Shown here: piece after piece, positions 4,579 to 43,343 of the stretch
Layout of the letters: every line of letters begins with the position of its first letter
How positions within the stretch are numbered: the first letter of the stretch is position 1
Source of the DNA: Phycisphaerae bacterium
Lineage (GTDB): Bacteria; Planctomycetota; Phycisphaerae; UBA1845; Fen-1342
Direction: 5' to 3'
Length of the DNA: 46,201 nucleotides
Assembly: GCA_028279405.1 (NCBI GenBank)
Contig: JANQNU010000044.1
Span: 1 to 46,201, forward strand
Notes under the pieces: model-generated
Databases searched by the model: none
What the model was told of the DNA's origin: nothing
The model's input: only the letters and a program-made list of their open reading frames with translations
Position numbers and translations under genes: made by a program

Positions 4579-4915
4579 CAGCCGAACAGTACGCTGGTAC
4601 TTGGCGAAGGTTCAAGACCGGGCCCGTCTCATTGCGAGCGCTGCGATTGCCGACTGCGTTGCGAAGGTACGGCCAGCATGCCGAGCGCTGCGCGTCGGCA
4701 TGCATCCGACGTATCCCGAACGCCTTGCTCGCCGGGGGTCGCGGACTACAAGATCCGTCGAACGATCGGCCGATGACTATTATCAGACGTCGTCGGGCGC
4801 GCTTGCAATTGAAATGTAGCACGATATACTTTTATTACCATGTGTAACGGCGTCCGTCGGCCGCAGGCGCGGGATCGGCGTTCGCTTGCAGAGCGCCACG
4901 AGTGCGAAGGGACTC
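4579..4915. other. Intergenic region upstream of the metal importer
   Basis: No gene is supported in the gap between the divergent zinc-ribbon gene and the metal importer operon. The only feature I can point to is the promoter at 4803-4830 and a small inverted repeat just downstream of it, both described separately. Confidence 0.5.
4803..4847 (+). promoter_or_regulatory. Promoter and possible operator of the metal importer operon
   Basis: TTGCAA (4803-4808), a 16-base spacer and TATACT (4825-4830) form a plausible sigma-70 promoter in an A/T-rich pocket, with a predicted start near 4837. A short inverted repeat TTAC-N5-GTAA (4835-4847) sits on that start point, where a metal-dependent repressor could act. 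The repeat is short and matches no known metal-box consensus, so the operator is speculative. Confidence 0.45.
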
Positions 4916-5926
4916 ATGATGACCATCGGTATTCGTTTAATCGCGGCGACCGCGATGATTCTCGGTCTGTTCGGCCTGCCCGGATGTGACAGTGCCTCCA
5001 CTGCGGGCCAGCAGCAGCCGCGGCAACGGGCGTCGGGGGAGAAGTATCGGGTCGTCTGCACGGTTGGGATGGTCGCGGACATCGTTCGCGAAGTGGTCGG
5101 CGAGCAGGCGGAAGTGCAGGGTATCATTGGCGAGGGGGTCGACCCGCACTTGTACAGTCCGACCCGCAACGACATCGCGGCGTTGCAATCGGCGGACGTG
5201 ATTTTCTACTCGGGCTTGATGCTCGAGGGCAAGATGGCGGACGCGTTGGTCAAGGTAGCGCGGACGGGTAAGCCGGTATACGCGGTGACCGAGGAGATCG
5301 AAGCTTCATACCTGCTCGAGCCGCCCGGGGCTGTAGGGCACGCCGACCCGCACGTGTGGATGGACGTCAAGGCCTGGAGTCAAGCGACGCGGGTGGTCGC
5401 GGACGCGTTGGGTACCTACGATTCGAAGCATGCACCGGTCTACAGGGACAACGCCGAGCGGTATCGGGCGGAGTTGGCCAAGCTCGATACGTATGCGAAG
5501 TCTGTGATCGCATCGATTCCGCGTGAACAGCGCGTGCTCGTGACCGCGCACGACGCGTTCAACTACTTTGGTCGGGCTTATGGGATCGCTGTACAGGGGA
5601 TCCAGGGAATCTCGACCGAGTCGGAGGCTGGTTTGCAGGACATTCGTCGACTGATCGACTATATCGTCGAGAAGCGGGTGCGAGCGGTTTTTGTCGAAAC
5701 GAGCGTTGCCGACAAGAACGTACGGGCATTGATCGAAGGTGCCGAGGCGCGTGGCCATTCGCTGGTGATCGGTGGCAGCTTGTTCTCGGATGCGATGGGC
5801 AAGCCCGGGACGTACGAAGGAACCTATCTGGGCATGATCGATCACAACGCGACGACGATCGCGCGGGCGCTGGGCGGCGAGGCACCGACCGGCGGAATGC
5901 AGGGCAAGTTGACGGGCGGCGAATGA
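4916..5926 (+). CDS. Metal ABC transporter substrate-binding lipoprotein (TroA/ZnuA family)
   Basis: This is the extracytoplasmic metal-binding component of a Mn/Zn/Fe ABC importer (cluster A-I, TroA/MntC type). The 336-residue product starts with a lipoprotein signal peptide ending in LPGC, so it should be lipid-anchored. The four ligand positions of TroA-like proteins are all present: H78 (GVDPHLY), H146 (ADPHVW), H212 (TAHDAF) and D292 (SDAMG). There is no long His-rich loop of the zinc-specific ZnuA type, which leans towards Mn or Fe, though metal choice cannot be fixed from this. The start is set by GAAGGGA a few bases upstream; the adjacent ATG at 4919 is equally possible. It overlaps the ATPase gene by ATGA. 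Confidence 0.93.
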
Positions 5927-6795
5927 TGTTGCACCAGAATCGACCACTCGTCAGTGATGAGGCGTCGAAGCCGTCTGCGCCCGAGGTCGTCCAGCGTACG
6001 GCGGACCCGGTTGCCACCGGCGCCGAGCACCCCGAAACGGCGCCGCTTTCGATGCACGATGTCACGGTGGCGTACCATCGCAAGCCGGTGCTTTGGGACG
6101 TCGATTTCGATGCGCCCGAAGGCCATTTGATCGGGATCGTCGGACCGAACGGTGCGGGCAAGAGCACGTTGCTCAAGGCGGTGCTCGATCTCGTGCCGCG
6201 CGTCAGCGGTATCGTGACGATTTTCGGTCGCCCTTATCGCACGCAGCGACAGCGGGTCGGCTACGTTCCACAACGCGAGAGCGTCGATTGGGATTTTCCG
6301 GTGAGCGCTCTCGATGTCGTTACGATGGGGCGCTACGGACGAATCGGCTGGTTCAAGCCGGTCGGCCGTGCGGACAAGGAGGCCGCGCATGCGGCGCTCG
6401 ATCGAGTGGGCATGGCTGACTACGCAAAGCGGCAGATCAGTCAACTTTCGGGTGGTCAGCAGCAGCGGGTCTTTCTGGCGCGGGCGCTGGCTCAGGAAGC
6501 GGATCTCTACCTGATGGACGAGCCTTTCGCGGGTGTCGATGCGGCGACCGAGAAGGCGATCATTCGGATCCTGCAGGAGCTTCGGGAAAAGCGACGGACG
6601 GTGCTCGTCGTACACCACGACCTTCAAACAGTCCCGGAGTACTTCGACCACGTCGTGTTGCTCAACATGCGCGTTGTCGCCCAGGGTCCGACTTCGGAGG
6701 TATTCACACCGGAGAACCTGCGGAAGACCTATGGTGGCCGGTTGACGCTGCTCGAGGAAGCGGCGCATGCCATCAAGCGTGGCGGACACGGGTGA
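5923..6795 (+). CDS. Metal ABC transporter ATP-binding protein (TroB/ZnuC family)
   Basis: This is the ATPase that powers the metal importer. All core motifs are intact: Walker A GPNGAGKS (residues 74-81), signature LSGGQ (175-179) followed by [10 protein letters not shown], and Walker B LYLMDEP with D199 and E200, then the switch histidine region VHHDL. Its length of 290 residues includes about 45 extra N-terminal residues before the usual start of the domain. It overlaps the binding-protein gene by ATGA at 5923-5926, so translation is probably coupled. The neighbours on both sides encode the other importer parts. Closest analogues by motif are TroB, MntB and YtgB. Confidence 0.95.
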
Positions 6796-6799
6796 TCGC

Positions 6800-8188
6800 A
6801 TGTCGACCGGCGTGACGCACGCAAGTCGGTTCGTGGACGAGCTTCTGCATGTCCTGACGCTGCAGGATTACAACACGAACGTCGTGGTCGTCGGCGTCAG
6901 TGCTCTGGGACTGGCCTGTGGACTGATCGGGAGCTTCCTGCTGTTGCGGAAGCGGGCGCTGCTCGGCGACGCGATCAGTCATGCGATGTTGCCGGGGATT
7001 GCGGGCGCCTTCATGGTCATGTCGGCACTCGGCGGCAGCGGGAAATCGCTGGTCGGGTTGCTCATCGGGGCGGCGATCTCCGGCGCAGCGGGGTTGGCGT
7101 GCATTCTGTTGATCCGTCATTTCTCGCGTATCAAGGAAGACGCGGCACTCGGCATCATCTTGAGCGTATTCTTCGGATTGGGGGTCGTACTGCTGACCTT
7201 GATTCAGCAGATGCGCACGGCCAGCGCCGCCGGTCTGGAGTCGTTCATTTACGGCAAGACCGCCTCGATGCTGGCAAGTGACGCGATCGCGATCCTGATC
7301 GCTGCGGTCGTGATCTCGATTGCCTGCCTGGTCCTCTTCAAGGAGTTCACCGTTCTCTCGTTTGATCAGGCATATGCGCAGTCGCAGGGGTTTCCGGTGC
7401 ACGGTCTCGATATCGTGATGACGGCGCTGGTCATTGCGGTGATGGTCATCGGATTACAGGCGGTGGGGTTGATTCTGATGATCGCGATGCTGGTGATTCC
7501 GCCGGCGGCGGCGCGGTTCTGGACGGATCGGCTGCACCGAATGCTGTTCTGTGCCGGCGCCATCGGATTGCTCAGCGGGCTCTTCGGCGCCCTGATCAGC
7601 ACGCTCACTCCGCGGATGCCGGCGGGAGCAGTGATCGTGCTGGTGGCCGGCGCGATCTTTTTCGTCAGCATGGTGTTCGGGACGGCGCGCGGCGTCGTGC
7701 GGCGCGTGGTAGAACACGTCGGGCTGGCGCGCAAGGTCGCGCTGCAGCACTTGCTGCGTGCCATGTACGAGTTGCGCGAAGCGCAGGCCGACTGCGAGGT
7801 CACGCCGACGGTCTTGCAAGAAGGACGCTTTAGCGCGGATGCGCTCCAGCCCCGTCGCGCCTGGAACGGTGGCGAACTGCAGCAAGCGATTCGGCTTGCA
7901 CGTCGGGCCGGGTATCTGACGCCGGACAGCCGCGGCGGCGTGCGACTGACCGAGTCCGGAGCAAACGCCGCGATTCATGTCGTTCGCAATCACCGGCTTT
8001 GGGAGATCTTTCTGATTACGCACGCGGACATCGCGCCGAGTCATGTCGATCGCGACGCGGACATGGTCGAGCACGTTCTCGACCCGGCGATGATCGCCGA
8101 ACTCGAGGCGGTGCTGGCCAAGACGGACCCGGCGTTGGCTACGCTGGCCAGCCCGCATCACCTGCCGAGCGCCGGAGGTGCGGGATGA
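6800..8188 (+). CDS. Metal ABC permease fused to a DtxR/MntR-like module (first)
   Basis: Residues 1-~300 are a full ABC-3 family permease (TroC/ZnuB/YtgC) with eight or nine hydrophobic helices and the family motif ALLGDAISHAMLPG. From about residue 314 the chain continues into a DtxR/MntR-like module: a winged-helix region ending in GGVRLTESG, then the dimerisation helices with NHRLWE (H398) and DMVEH (D421, E424, H425). These align with MntR metal ligands H77, E99, E102 and H103, with Asp in place of E99. The C-terminal CPHG-x-PIP motif of DtxR is degraded to SPHHLPS. I start at ATG 6800, four bases after the ATPase stop; an ATG at 6767 is possible. Chlamydial YtgCR has the same kind of fusion. 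Confidence 0.9.
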   Translation: MSTGVTHASRFVDELLHVLTLQDYNTNVVVVGVSALGLACGLIGSFLLLRKRALLGDAISHAMLPGIAGAFMVMSALGGSGKSLVGLLIGAAISGAAGLACILLIRHFSRIKEDAALGIILSVFFGLGVVLLTLIQQMRTASAAGLESFIYGKTASMLASDAIAILIAAVVISIACLVLFKEFTVLSFDQAYAQSQGFPVHGLDIVMTALVIAVMVIGLQAVGLILMIAMLVIPPAAARFWTDRLHRMLFCAGAIGLLSGLFGALISTLTPRMPAGAVIVLVAGAIFFVSMVFGTARGVVRRVVEHVGLARKVALQHLLRAMYELREAQADCEVTPTVLQEGRFSADALQPRRAWNGGELQQAIRLARRAGYLTPDSRGGVRLTESGANAAIHVVRNHRLWEIFLITHADIAPSHVDRDADMVEHVLDPAMIAELEAVLAKTDPALATLASPHHLPSAGGAG

Positions 8189-9555
8189 GCGAGTTGCTGT
8201 CGATGGTGCAGTGGCAGACGCTGGATACATGGATCGTGGTGGTGGGGGCGCTGTGCGGGATGTCATGCGCGCTGTTGGGCACGTTCCTGGTCCTGCGCCG
8301 AATGAGCATGATGGGCGACGCAATCAGCCACGCAGTTCTTCCGGGGCTCGCGATCGCCTTCCTTGTGGCCGGATCGCGCGGGAGTCTCGTCATGCTCGTC
8401 GGGGCCGGCGTTGTCGGACTGCTGACGGCCGTGTTCACGCAGTGGATCCATCGCGCGGGGCGTGTGGATGAAGGCGCGTCAATGGGCGTCGTCTTTACGG
8501 TGCTATTTGCGATCGGGCTGATCCTGATCGTGCATGTCGCCGAGCACGGTAGCGACGAACTGGGCCGTGCGGCGGGCGTCGATCTCGATCCGCGCTGCGT
8601 TCTGCAGGGGGCGCTTGAGATGGTTCACCTCTATCCGGTGACGCTGTTCGGCGTCAGCGCGCCACGGGCGTTCTGGATCACCGCGGCGGTCTTTATCGCG
8701 AACGTCGCTATCGTTGCGCTGCTGTACAAGGAACTCAAGATCAGCGCATTCGATCCGGCGCTCGCCACGTCGTTGGGAATCAGTGCCGATTGGATGCACT
8801 ACCTGCTGATGACGCTGGTAGCCATTACGACGGTTGTGGCGTTCGAGAGTGTCGGGAGCATCCTGGTGATCGCGATGCTGATCGTGCCCGCGGCCGCCGC
8901 CCACCTGCTGACGGACCGGCTGGGCAGCATGCTCGGGTTGGCAATGATCATCGCGGTCATCGCGGCCGTGACCGGTCACTGGTCGGCGATCAACGTCCCC
9001 AGCTGGGTCGGCTTCGATGGACAAAGCGCGAGCACGGCCGGCATGATCGCCGTCGTCTCGGGGCTCGTCTTTTCCCTGGCACTGCTCTTGGCGCCGCGAC
9101 GCGGCATCGTGAGTCAGATACTCAACCGGTTGGCGCTATCGGTGCGCGTCGCGCGCGAGGACGCGCTCGGTCTCCTGCTCCGTGCCGAAGAACGCGGTGG
9201 CACACTCACGCCGACCGAACTGCGCGGCGCTGTGCGCGCCACCGGGGCAGGGAGCGGTGCGGTCAGCTGGGCTTTGCATCAGTTGCAGCGACAGCAGCTT
9301 GTGCGACACGATTCCGGCAGGCTGCAATTGACTGTCGCCGGCAAGGCCCGTGCGACGGAACTGCTGAGATCGCACCGCTTGTGGGAAACCTACGTGGAAG
9401 AGCATTTCCACCTGCCCACGGATCACGTTCACGGACCCGCCGAACGACTCGAGCACGTGACCGACCCTGCGTTGCGCGAACGCCTCGCCGATACGCTGGC
9501 GAATCCGACCCACGACCCGCATGGCCGGCCAATTCCGCCAAACGACGCTACGTAG
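8185..9555 (+). CDS. Metal ABC permease fused to a DtxR/MntR-like module (second)
   Basis: This is the second permease of the importer (456 residues). It overlaps the first by ATGA and has a strong GGAGG ribosome site at 8174-8178. Residues 1-~305 form the ABC-3 membrane domain with SMMGDAISHAVLPG. From about residue 322 a DtxR/MntR-like module follows: winged helix ending GRLQLTVAG, then SHRLWE (H397), ERLEH (E420, E423, H424) and DPHGRPIP (444-451). This module is better preserved than the one in the first permease, with both glutamates and the closing PHG-x-PIP motif. The N-terminal D8/E11-type ligands of MntR are not clearly conserved. No separate DtxR gene lies nearby, so these modules may be the regulators or cytoplasmic metal sensors. 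Confidence 0.92.
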   Translation: MSELLSMVQWQTLDTWIVVVGALCGMSCALLGTFLVLRRMSMMGDAISHAVLPGLAIAFLVAGSRGSLVMLVGAGVVGLLTAVFTQWIHRAGRVDEGASMGVVFTVLFAIGLILIVHVAEHGSDELGRAAGVDLDPRCVLQGALEMVHLYPVTLFGVSAPRAFWITAAVFIANVAIVALLYKELKISAFDPALATSLGISADWMHYLLMTLVAITTVVAFESVGSILVIAMLIVPAAAAHLLTDRLGSMLGLAMIIAVIAAVTGHWSAINVPSWVGFDGQSASTAGMIAVVSGLVFSLALLLAPRRGIVSQILNRLALSVRVAREDALGLLLRAEERGGTLTPTELRGAVRATGAGSGAVSWALHQLQRQQLVRHDSGRLQLTVAGKARATELLRSHRLWETYVEEHFHLPTDHVHGPAERLEHVTDPALRERLADTLANPTHDPHGRPIPPNDAT

Positions 9556-43027: not shown

Positions 43028-43101
43028 GGGCTCGTAGCTCAGTTGGTTAGAGCGCGTCCCTGATAAGGACGAGGTCCCTGGTTCGAATCCAGGCGGGCCC
43101 A
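43028..43101 (+). tRNA. tRNA-Ile (anticodon GAT)
   Basis: A complete 74-nt cloverleaf: acceptor GGGCTCG/CGGGCCC with one G-T pair, D arm GCTC/GAGC, anticodon stem CGTCC/GGACG with loop CTGATAA (GAT at 43062-43064), T arm CCTGG/CCAGG with loop TTCGAAT, and discriminator A. CCA is not encoded. It is the first of two spacer-type tRNAs. Confidence 0.97.
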
Positions 43102-43142
43102 TTCAGGAAGGCGCTGGTAAGCAGCTTGCAGACTGGCGTTTG

Positions 43143-43223
43143 ATGGACGTTTTCCTGACGTACCTTGCGATGGTCCTTCTGGCTGTGTTGTTGATCTGGA
43201 ACACGGCGAAGGGCGGCGGCTGA
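43143..43223 (+). CDS. Possible 26-residue membrane peptide between the tRNAs
   Basis: An ATG at 43143 opens 26 codons ending in TGA (43221-43223). The peptide is almost one hydrophobic helix (MDVFLTYLAMVLLAVLLIWN) followed by a short TAKGGG tail, so a single-pass membrane peptide is predicted. It lies between the tRNA-Ile and tRNA-Ala genes. No clear ribosome site is present and the fragment is short, so it may be chance. No function is assigned. Confidence 0.25.
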   Translation: MDVFLTYLAMVLLAVLLIWNTAKGGG

Positions 43224-43270
43224 GGCCCGCGAGGTTGTGGCTAGGAGTTTCCTGGCCAGGGAACGGAATC

Positions 43271-43343
43271 GGGGCCGTAGCTCAATTGGGAGAGCGCCGC
43301 GTTTGCAACGCGGAGGTTACCGGTTCGATCCCGGTCGGCTCCA
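43271..43343 (+). tRNA. tRNA-Ala (anticodon TGC)
   Basis: A complete 73-nt cloverleaf: acceptor GGGGCCG/CGGCTCC with one G-T pair, D arm GCTC/GAGC, anticodon stem CCGCG/CGCGG with loop TTTGCAA (TGC at 43304-43306), T arm ACCGG/CCGGT, and discriminator A. CCA is not encoded. With tRNA-Ile it forms the classic pair normally found between 16S and 23S genes. Confidence 0.97.

Follow-up and report, generated by a model that had tools for sequence, protein, structure and literature searches.

The known precedent for a metal importer in which permease and regulator are joined in one protein is YtgCR of Chlamydia trachomatis. Within a four-gene metal-importer operon, an ABC-3 permease runs into a DtxR/TroR-like domain; YtgCR undergoes cleavage, and the operon is repressed by YtgR, its own product (PMC5599777, PMC6504234). 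YtgR has been described as the sole known iron-dependent regulator of Chlamydia (PMC6504234). Control at the level of transport is known from other importers, and MetNI and ModABC are established cases of trans-inhibition through C-terminal sensor domains (PMC10710835). In the literature that was found, the permease-repressor fusion was described only as an oddity of Chlamydia, and no paper on a permease-DtxR fusion in Planctomycetes was found in the open-licence literature. The sequences considered below show that such fusions extend across the PVC bacteria.

The locus analyzed here lies in a stretch of 46,201 nucleotides (the window) from a Phycisphaerae bacterium. A sequence-only reading of the window had claimed that both permeases of a metal importer carry a fused DtxR/MntR-like module and had named YtgCR as the precedent, an apt choice.

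Domain architecture of the importer

The operon (positions 4916 to 9555) encodes a binding protein, an ABC ATPase, and two ABC-3 permeases, here called A and B (Table 1), and this gene order is kept in relatives. The two permease genes overlap in the sequence ATGA. The best NCBIfam matches of the ATPase, with scores under the cut-off, were Mn/Fe importer ATPases. These closest families, together with the predicted MntR-type operator, suggest that the locus is a two-permease ABC importer of the Mn/Fe type.

Table 1. Predicted features of the importer operon and other features of the window
Feature	Position	Strand	Basis or remarks
Predicted MntR-type operator, GAAATGTAGCACGATATACTTTTA	4811-4834	+	One good, one weak half-site
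ZnuA/PsaA-family substrate-binding protein P0001, 336 aa	4916-5926	+	PF01297, 4.5e-79
Importer ATPase P0002, 290 aa	5923-6795	+	PF00005, 1.9e-30
Permease A with DtxR-like module, P0003, 462 aa	6800-8188	+	Pfam, AF2 model
ABC-3 permease domain of A, residues 27-293	6878-7678	+	PF00950, 3e-59; PsaC structural match
Connecting helix of A, residues 299-329	7694-7786	+	AF2 model; continues into module helix 1
DtxR-like module of A, residues 309-441	7724-8122	+	PF02742 at 384-441, 48.8 bits
Permease B with DtxR-like module, P0004, 456 aa	8185-9555	+	Pfam, AF2 model
ABC-3 permease domain of B, residues 17-305	8233-9099	+	PF00950, 8.5e-46; PsaC structural match
Connecting helix of B, residues 308-336	9106-9192	+	AF2 model
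DtxR-like module of B, residues 316-451	9130-9537	+	PF02742 at 383-451, 76.6 bits
Secreted-looking protein, 945 aa	9684-12521	-	Dockerin-like, Asp-rich repeat segments; gene converges on the operon
Tandem tRNA-Ile and tRNA-Ala genes	43028-43343		As in an rRNA operon spacer

In P0003 and P0004 alike, the ABC-3 domain continues into the DtxR-like module in a single reading frame without an intervening stop, and the module is attached past the last membrane helix. The profile comparison that the sequence-only reading had suggested for the C-terminal regions gave a divided result. PF02742 (Fe_dep_repr_C; cut-off, 27 bits) scored above its cut-off in both proteins and in 66/66 fused relatives, and PF01325, the Pfam model of the DtxR DNA-binding domain, matched the sequence of neither P0003 nor P0004. 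Module A consists of a diverged winged helix and a metal/dimerization half; module B stops after a DPHGxxIP motif and has no FeoA/SH3 domain. In a profile search against solved structures, the front part of the proteins matched PsaC and the back part matched DtxR, IdeR, SloR, ScaR, and MntR.

AlphaFold2 models, built on alignments of 41 relatives for A and 25 for B, had mean pLDDT values of 86.7 (P0003) and 80.7 (P0004). For both permeases the predicted fold was that of PsaC, followed by one long helix and then by a winged helix and dimerization helices. In structural comparisons with VIA-align, residues 24 to 297 of the P0003 model resembled PsaC (7kyo; Z, 30.9) and residues 309 to 455 resembled domains 1 and 2 of DtxR/MntR (best Z, 13.4). 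The corresponding parts of the P0004 model were residues 12 to 306 (PsaC; Z, 25.0) and 315 to 456 (IdeR/DtxR/MntR; Z up to 17.4). Because both models match DtxR/MntR, the winged helix is present as a fold even though its sequence has diverged. Sequence, predicted fold, and recurrence in relatives confirmed that both permeases carry genuine DtxR/MntR-like modules. A frameshift, sequencing, or assembly error merging separate genes was ruled out, because the fusion recurs in many independent genomes.

A conserved metal site and a diverged winged helix

Metal ligand positions were mapped by alignment to DtxR/MntR numbering (DtxR positions 10, 79, 83, 98, 102, 105, and 106). In module A, the residues at these positions (Q316, H398, E402, D417, D421, E424, and H425) were invariant in 41/41 sequences. 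In module B, D326, H397, E401, H416, E423, and H424 were invariant in all 25 sequences, and E420 was found in 18/25. Module A has aspartate at the positions of DtxR His98 and Cys102 and glutamine at the position of Met10. The predicted metal site of module A is thus altered relative to that of DtxR, yet it is invariant.

The metal/dimerization half of the fused modules was nearly as conserved (mean JSD, 0.64 in A and 0.58 in B) as that of stand-alone regulators at the same loci (0.70 and 0.69), whereas the HTH/wing half was much less so (0.38 and 0.40, compared to 0.61 and 0.68). PF01325 matched none of the 66 fused modules (0/41 A, 0/25 B) but all 38 of the neighboring stand-alone regulators. 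By this sequence criterion, the DtxR DNA-binding signature has disappeared from the winged helix of the fused modules. The HTH of module A has invariant residues of its own, R353 and W355, which are absent from the DNA-binding neighbors, and the winged helix of this module has therefore probably been repurposed rather than left to decay.

The spacing between the membrane and module helix 1 was constant: 18 residues in A (G298 to Q316; 41/41 and 20/20 sequences) and 19 residues in B (G307 to D326; 25/25 and 23/23 sequences). The length of the HTH varied widely among fused modules, but the length of the membrane linker was fixed without exception. The fixed length and the continuous helix in both AlphaFold2 models are better suited to rigid coupling than to a cleavable linker.

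Fused permeases across PVC bacteria

The search for proteins combining ABC-3 and Fe-dependent repressor domains, also suggested by the sequence-only reading, yielded relatives on two scales. A related importer was present in 31 of 61 genomes from the same family and order, and every one of the 31 systems kept at least one fused module; a system without any module was not found among them. Both permeases were fused in 23 systems, only B in 2 (G032 and G036), and only A in 1 (G043), and 5/31 had a single permease gene, which was fused (G004, G009, G014, G022, and G045). The single-permease importers are presumably homodimeric. Their modules (loci L081, L077, L078, and L075 in G014, G009, G004, and G045, respectively, and G022:C113) have a DtxR-type ligand set.

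When 85,000 genomes were scanned with the alignment of A, at least 295 relatives were confirmed, and the best 80 loci were analyzed; this set partly overlaps the genome set (L091, for example, is G002). Most of the best 80 of the at least 295 belonged to Planctomycetota, Verrucomicrobiota, Kiritimatiellota, and Lentisphaerota; a few odd bins were also represented, and chlamydial loci were not among the 80. The status of B could be resolved in 77 of the 80 loci, with 24 fused in both permeases and 53 in A only, a proportion that is not a census because the sample was chosen by the A-module motif. Fusion of one permease was the usual state in Verrucomicrobia and fusion of both in Planctomycetota. 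No plasmid record had one place covering 80% of P0004, and the module alone matched only annotated regulators among the plasmid matches listed. The permease-DtxR fusion is old and widespread in PVC bacteria.

Operators follow the separate regulators

The operon in the window has no stand-alone DtxR gene, as the sequence-only reading had noted. Its view that this absence fits a built-in regulator was not supported. Three stand-alone proteins with both PF02742 and PF01325 are encoded elsewhere in the genome (contigs C13, C39, and C86), and these rule out an organism without any such regulator. Furthermore, a stand-alone DtxR/MntR gene adjoins the operon in 41 of the best 80 loci and in 15 order-level loci, about half; this gene is mostly divergent and located upstream of znuA. 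In 28 + 9 loci, no stand-alone regulator was found within the fetched stretch. Four loci of family f4 genomes and G010 (L084, L085, L089, and L090) have DtxR-like open reading frames of ~345 to 350 amino acids, longer than normal regulators.

With a matrix built from the znuA promoters of relatives, the best site in the window scored 14.8 bits (next best place, 2.1). This predicted MntR-type operator lies inside the stretch from 4803 to 4847 that the sequence-only reading had proposed for a DNA-binding test. It is imperfect, with 9/12 core positions matched, and is one of three places with at most 3 mismatches from the consensus in the 5.6-Mb genome; a reversed-pattern control also gave three.

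Two operator classes were distinguished upstream of znuA at a threshold of ≥10/12 matched positions. TGTAGC-N4-GCTACA was found in 12/23 loci with a neighbor of the MntR type, which is short, and in 0/33 with a neighbor of the longer DtxR/TroR type, whereas TCTTGA-N4-TCAAGA was found in 24/33 DtxR/TroR-type and 1/23 MntR-type loci; these counts are descriptive, as related sequences are not independent. Because the operator class switches with the type of neighbor, the operator follows the separate regulator and not the fused module.

A third class, CTTTGA-N4-TCAAAG, was observed upstream of znuA in Verrucomicrobial loci without a DtxR-family gene in the fetched stretch (L119, L135, L145, L154, L155, L160, L161, L164, and L169). 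A near-perfect MntR-type operator (1 mismatch) was also present in G000 on contig C43 (100447 to 100468; L186, 3448 to 3469), at the start of a gene of the alkaline phosphatase superfamily (L186, 1725 to 3458, minus strand). It is possible that this gene is a second target of the same regulator.

Phylogeny and permease tails outside the PVC group

In the permease tree, the Deinococcus, Paracoccus, and Azospirillum permeases that grouped with A were not those that grouped with B, and the split between A and B therefore predates the PVC group. In the module tree, the fused modules grouped together, apart from the sampled PVC stand-alone regulators (SH-aLRT, 99). This grouping favors, but does not show, one fusion event that preceded the A/B split, because an alternative tree placing B with the stand-alone DtxR type was not rejected (AU test; P = 0.46).

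Permease 2 of Deinococcus and permeases 1 and 2 of Paracoccus have a short winged-helix-like tail without the metal half. The best tail pairs gave hhalign E values from 5e-6 to 4e-8, compared to 0.009 or worse for shuffled and tail-less negative controls; these pairwise values come from single sequences and are rough. A Halomonas permease has a similar short tail, judged by eye, and permease 1 of Azospirillum has a longer degenerate one (loci with winged-helix-like or degenerate tails are L174, L175, L176, L178, L188, and L190). Such C-terminal tails may occur more widely among ABC-3 permeases as a feature that has gone unannotated.

What the fused modules might do

The sequence-only reading had offered three roles for the modules: direct gating of transport, dimerization across the permease pair, and release as a repressor. 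Release, as in Chlamydia, would mean that the modules, once cleaved from the permeases, repress the operon in a metal-dependent manner. The cleavage of YtgCR and self-repression by YtgR (PMC5599777, PMC6504234) speak for this, as do the winged-helix fold retained in both models and the 28 + 9 loci without a stand-alone regulator in the fetched stretch. However, the DNA-binding signature is gone from 66/66 modules and the HTH is poorly conserved, the linker length never varies, the operator class depends on which stand-alone regulator is present although the fused module is retained throughout, and there are three stand-alone DtxR genes here, compared to YtgR as the sole known iron regulator in Chlamydia. 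Release as a repressor is thus quite improbable. Also unlikely is a role of the tail in stability or assembly, through docking to the ATPase or the membrane, with no sensing and with the metal ligands kept for structure. The tails outside the PVC group that lack the metal half would fit such a role, as would the invariant R353 and W355 of module A, but the near-perfect conservation of seven A and six B ligand-position residues across the superphylum is difficult to account for if no metal is bound.

Where both modules are present, their pairing as a DtxR-style heterodimer, the working unit being a gate or scaffold across the permease pair, is possible, if somewhat doubtful. PF02742 is a dimerization domain, the dimerization/metal half is the conserved part, and the five single-permease systems, presumably homodimers, also carry the module. 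Pairing is not generally needed, though, because many systems keep one module only: on A in 53/77 resolvable loci and G043, and on B in the two genomes G032 and G036. Among gating, a dimer across the pair, and a released repressor, direct gating appears to be the best of the three.

On balance, we lean toward the view that the permease-tethered, DtxR-derived domain is a cytosolic metal sensor that throttles import when Mn or Fe is high. This view draws on the retained metal site, the lost DNA-binding signature, the rigid spacing to the membrane, the separate repressors, and the fact that at least one module is always kept. With sufficient Mn2+ or Fe2+ in the cytosol, the conserved DtxR-type site of the module would be occupied by metal, and the rigid connecting helix would relay the change to the permease or ATPase and slow import, a trans-inhibition comparable to that of MetNI and ModABC. 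Transcription of the operon would be controlled separately by a stand-alone MntR-type repressor at 4811 to 4834, probably the MntR-type protein encoded on contig C13. The module therefore looks more like an import shut-off valve than a gene switch. Several observations count against a tethered sensor. The homologous domain in C. trachomatis is a cleaved DNA-binding repressor (PMC5599777, PMC6504234), and thus there is at least one lineage in which the DtxR-like fold is able to act on DNA. Furthermore, known trans-inhibited ABC importers have the sensor on the ATPase and not on the permease, the operator in the window is imperfect, and the metal site of module A is altered.

More tentatively, the tethered sensor could be an ancient part of one branch of Mn/Fe ABC importers that predates the split of the permease genes and gates transport by metal feedback. 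If so, the use of the sensor as the gene repressor in Chlamydia YtgCR would be derived, and the winged-helix tails on permeases of Deinococcus, Paracoccus, and Halomonas would be what is left of a reduced module. Free-living members of the PVC group keep separate repressors in addition to fused permeases. Transport-level feedback in Mn/Fe ABC importers becomes testable in these nonpathogens, as does the question of how, in Chlamydia, a transporter-bound sensor became a free repressor, or the reverse.

Comparison with known systems

Several described systems share parts of this architecture. The manganese importers PsaBC and MntBC (7kyo, 7kyp) have permeases of the same fold and family but no C-terminal sensor module. 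Stand-alone MntR and DtxR/IdeR/TroR share the winged helix, the metal/dimerization domain, and the main ligand positions with the fused modules, which differ in having no PF01325 match and no FeoA/SH3 domain. In Treponema TroABCD-R and the mnt-type loci of Deinococcus, the importer has the same subunits, and a DtxR-family gene lies within or close to the operon; unlike the modules in the window, the regulator is not joined to a permease. In D. peraridilitoris, the DtxR-family gene directly follows permease 2 with overlapping ends, an arrangement that could yield a fusion. MetNI and ModABC are alike in the logic proposed here, in which import is limited by a C-terminal cytosolic domain that senses the substrate; there the sensor is on the ATPase and has another fold, whereas the module in the window is DtxR-like and on the permease.

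YtgCR differs in that one permease is fused and YtgD is not, whereas both are fused in the window; the YtgCR/YtgD layout is shared by the Verrucomicrobial loci in which A is fused and B is not. Moreover, unlike YtgCR, the fused permeases in the window occur in a genome with stand-alone regulators, and their modules lack the DtxR DNA-binding signature. Because a system with one fused permease was already known, the importer in the window is not a wholly new type: YtgCR is the precedent, and the double-permease fusion is a variation on it.
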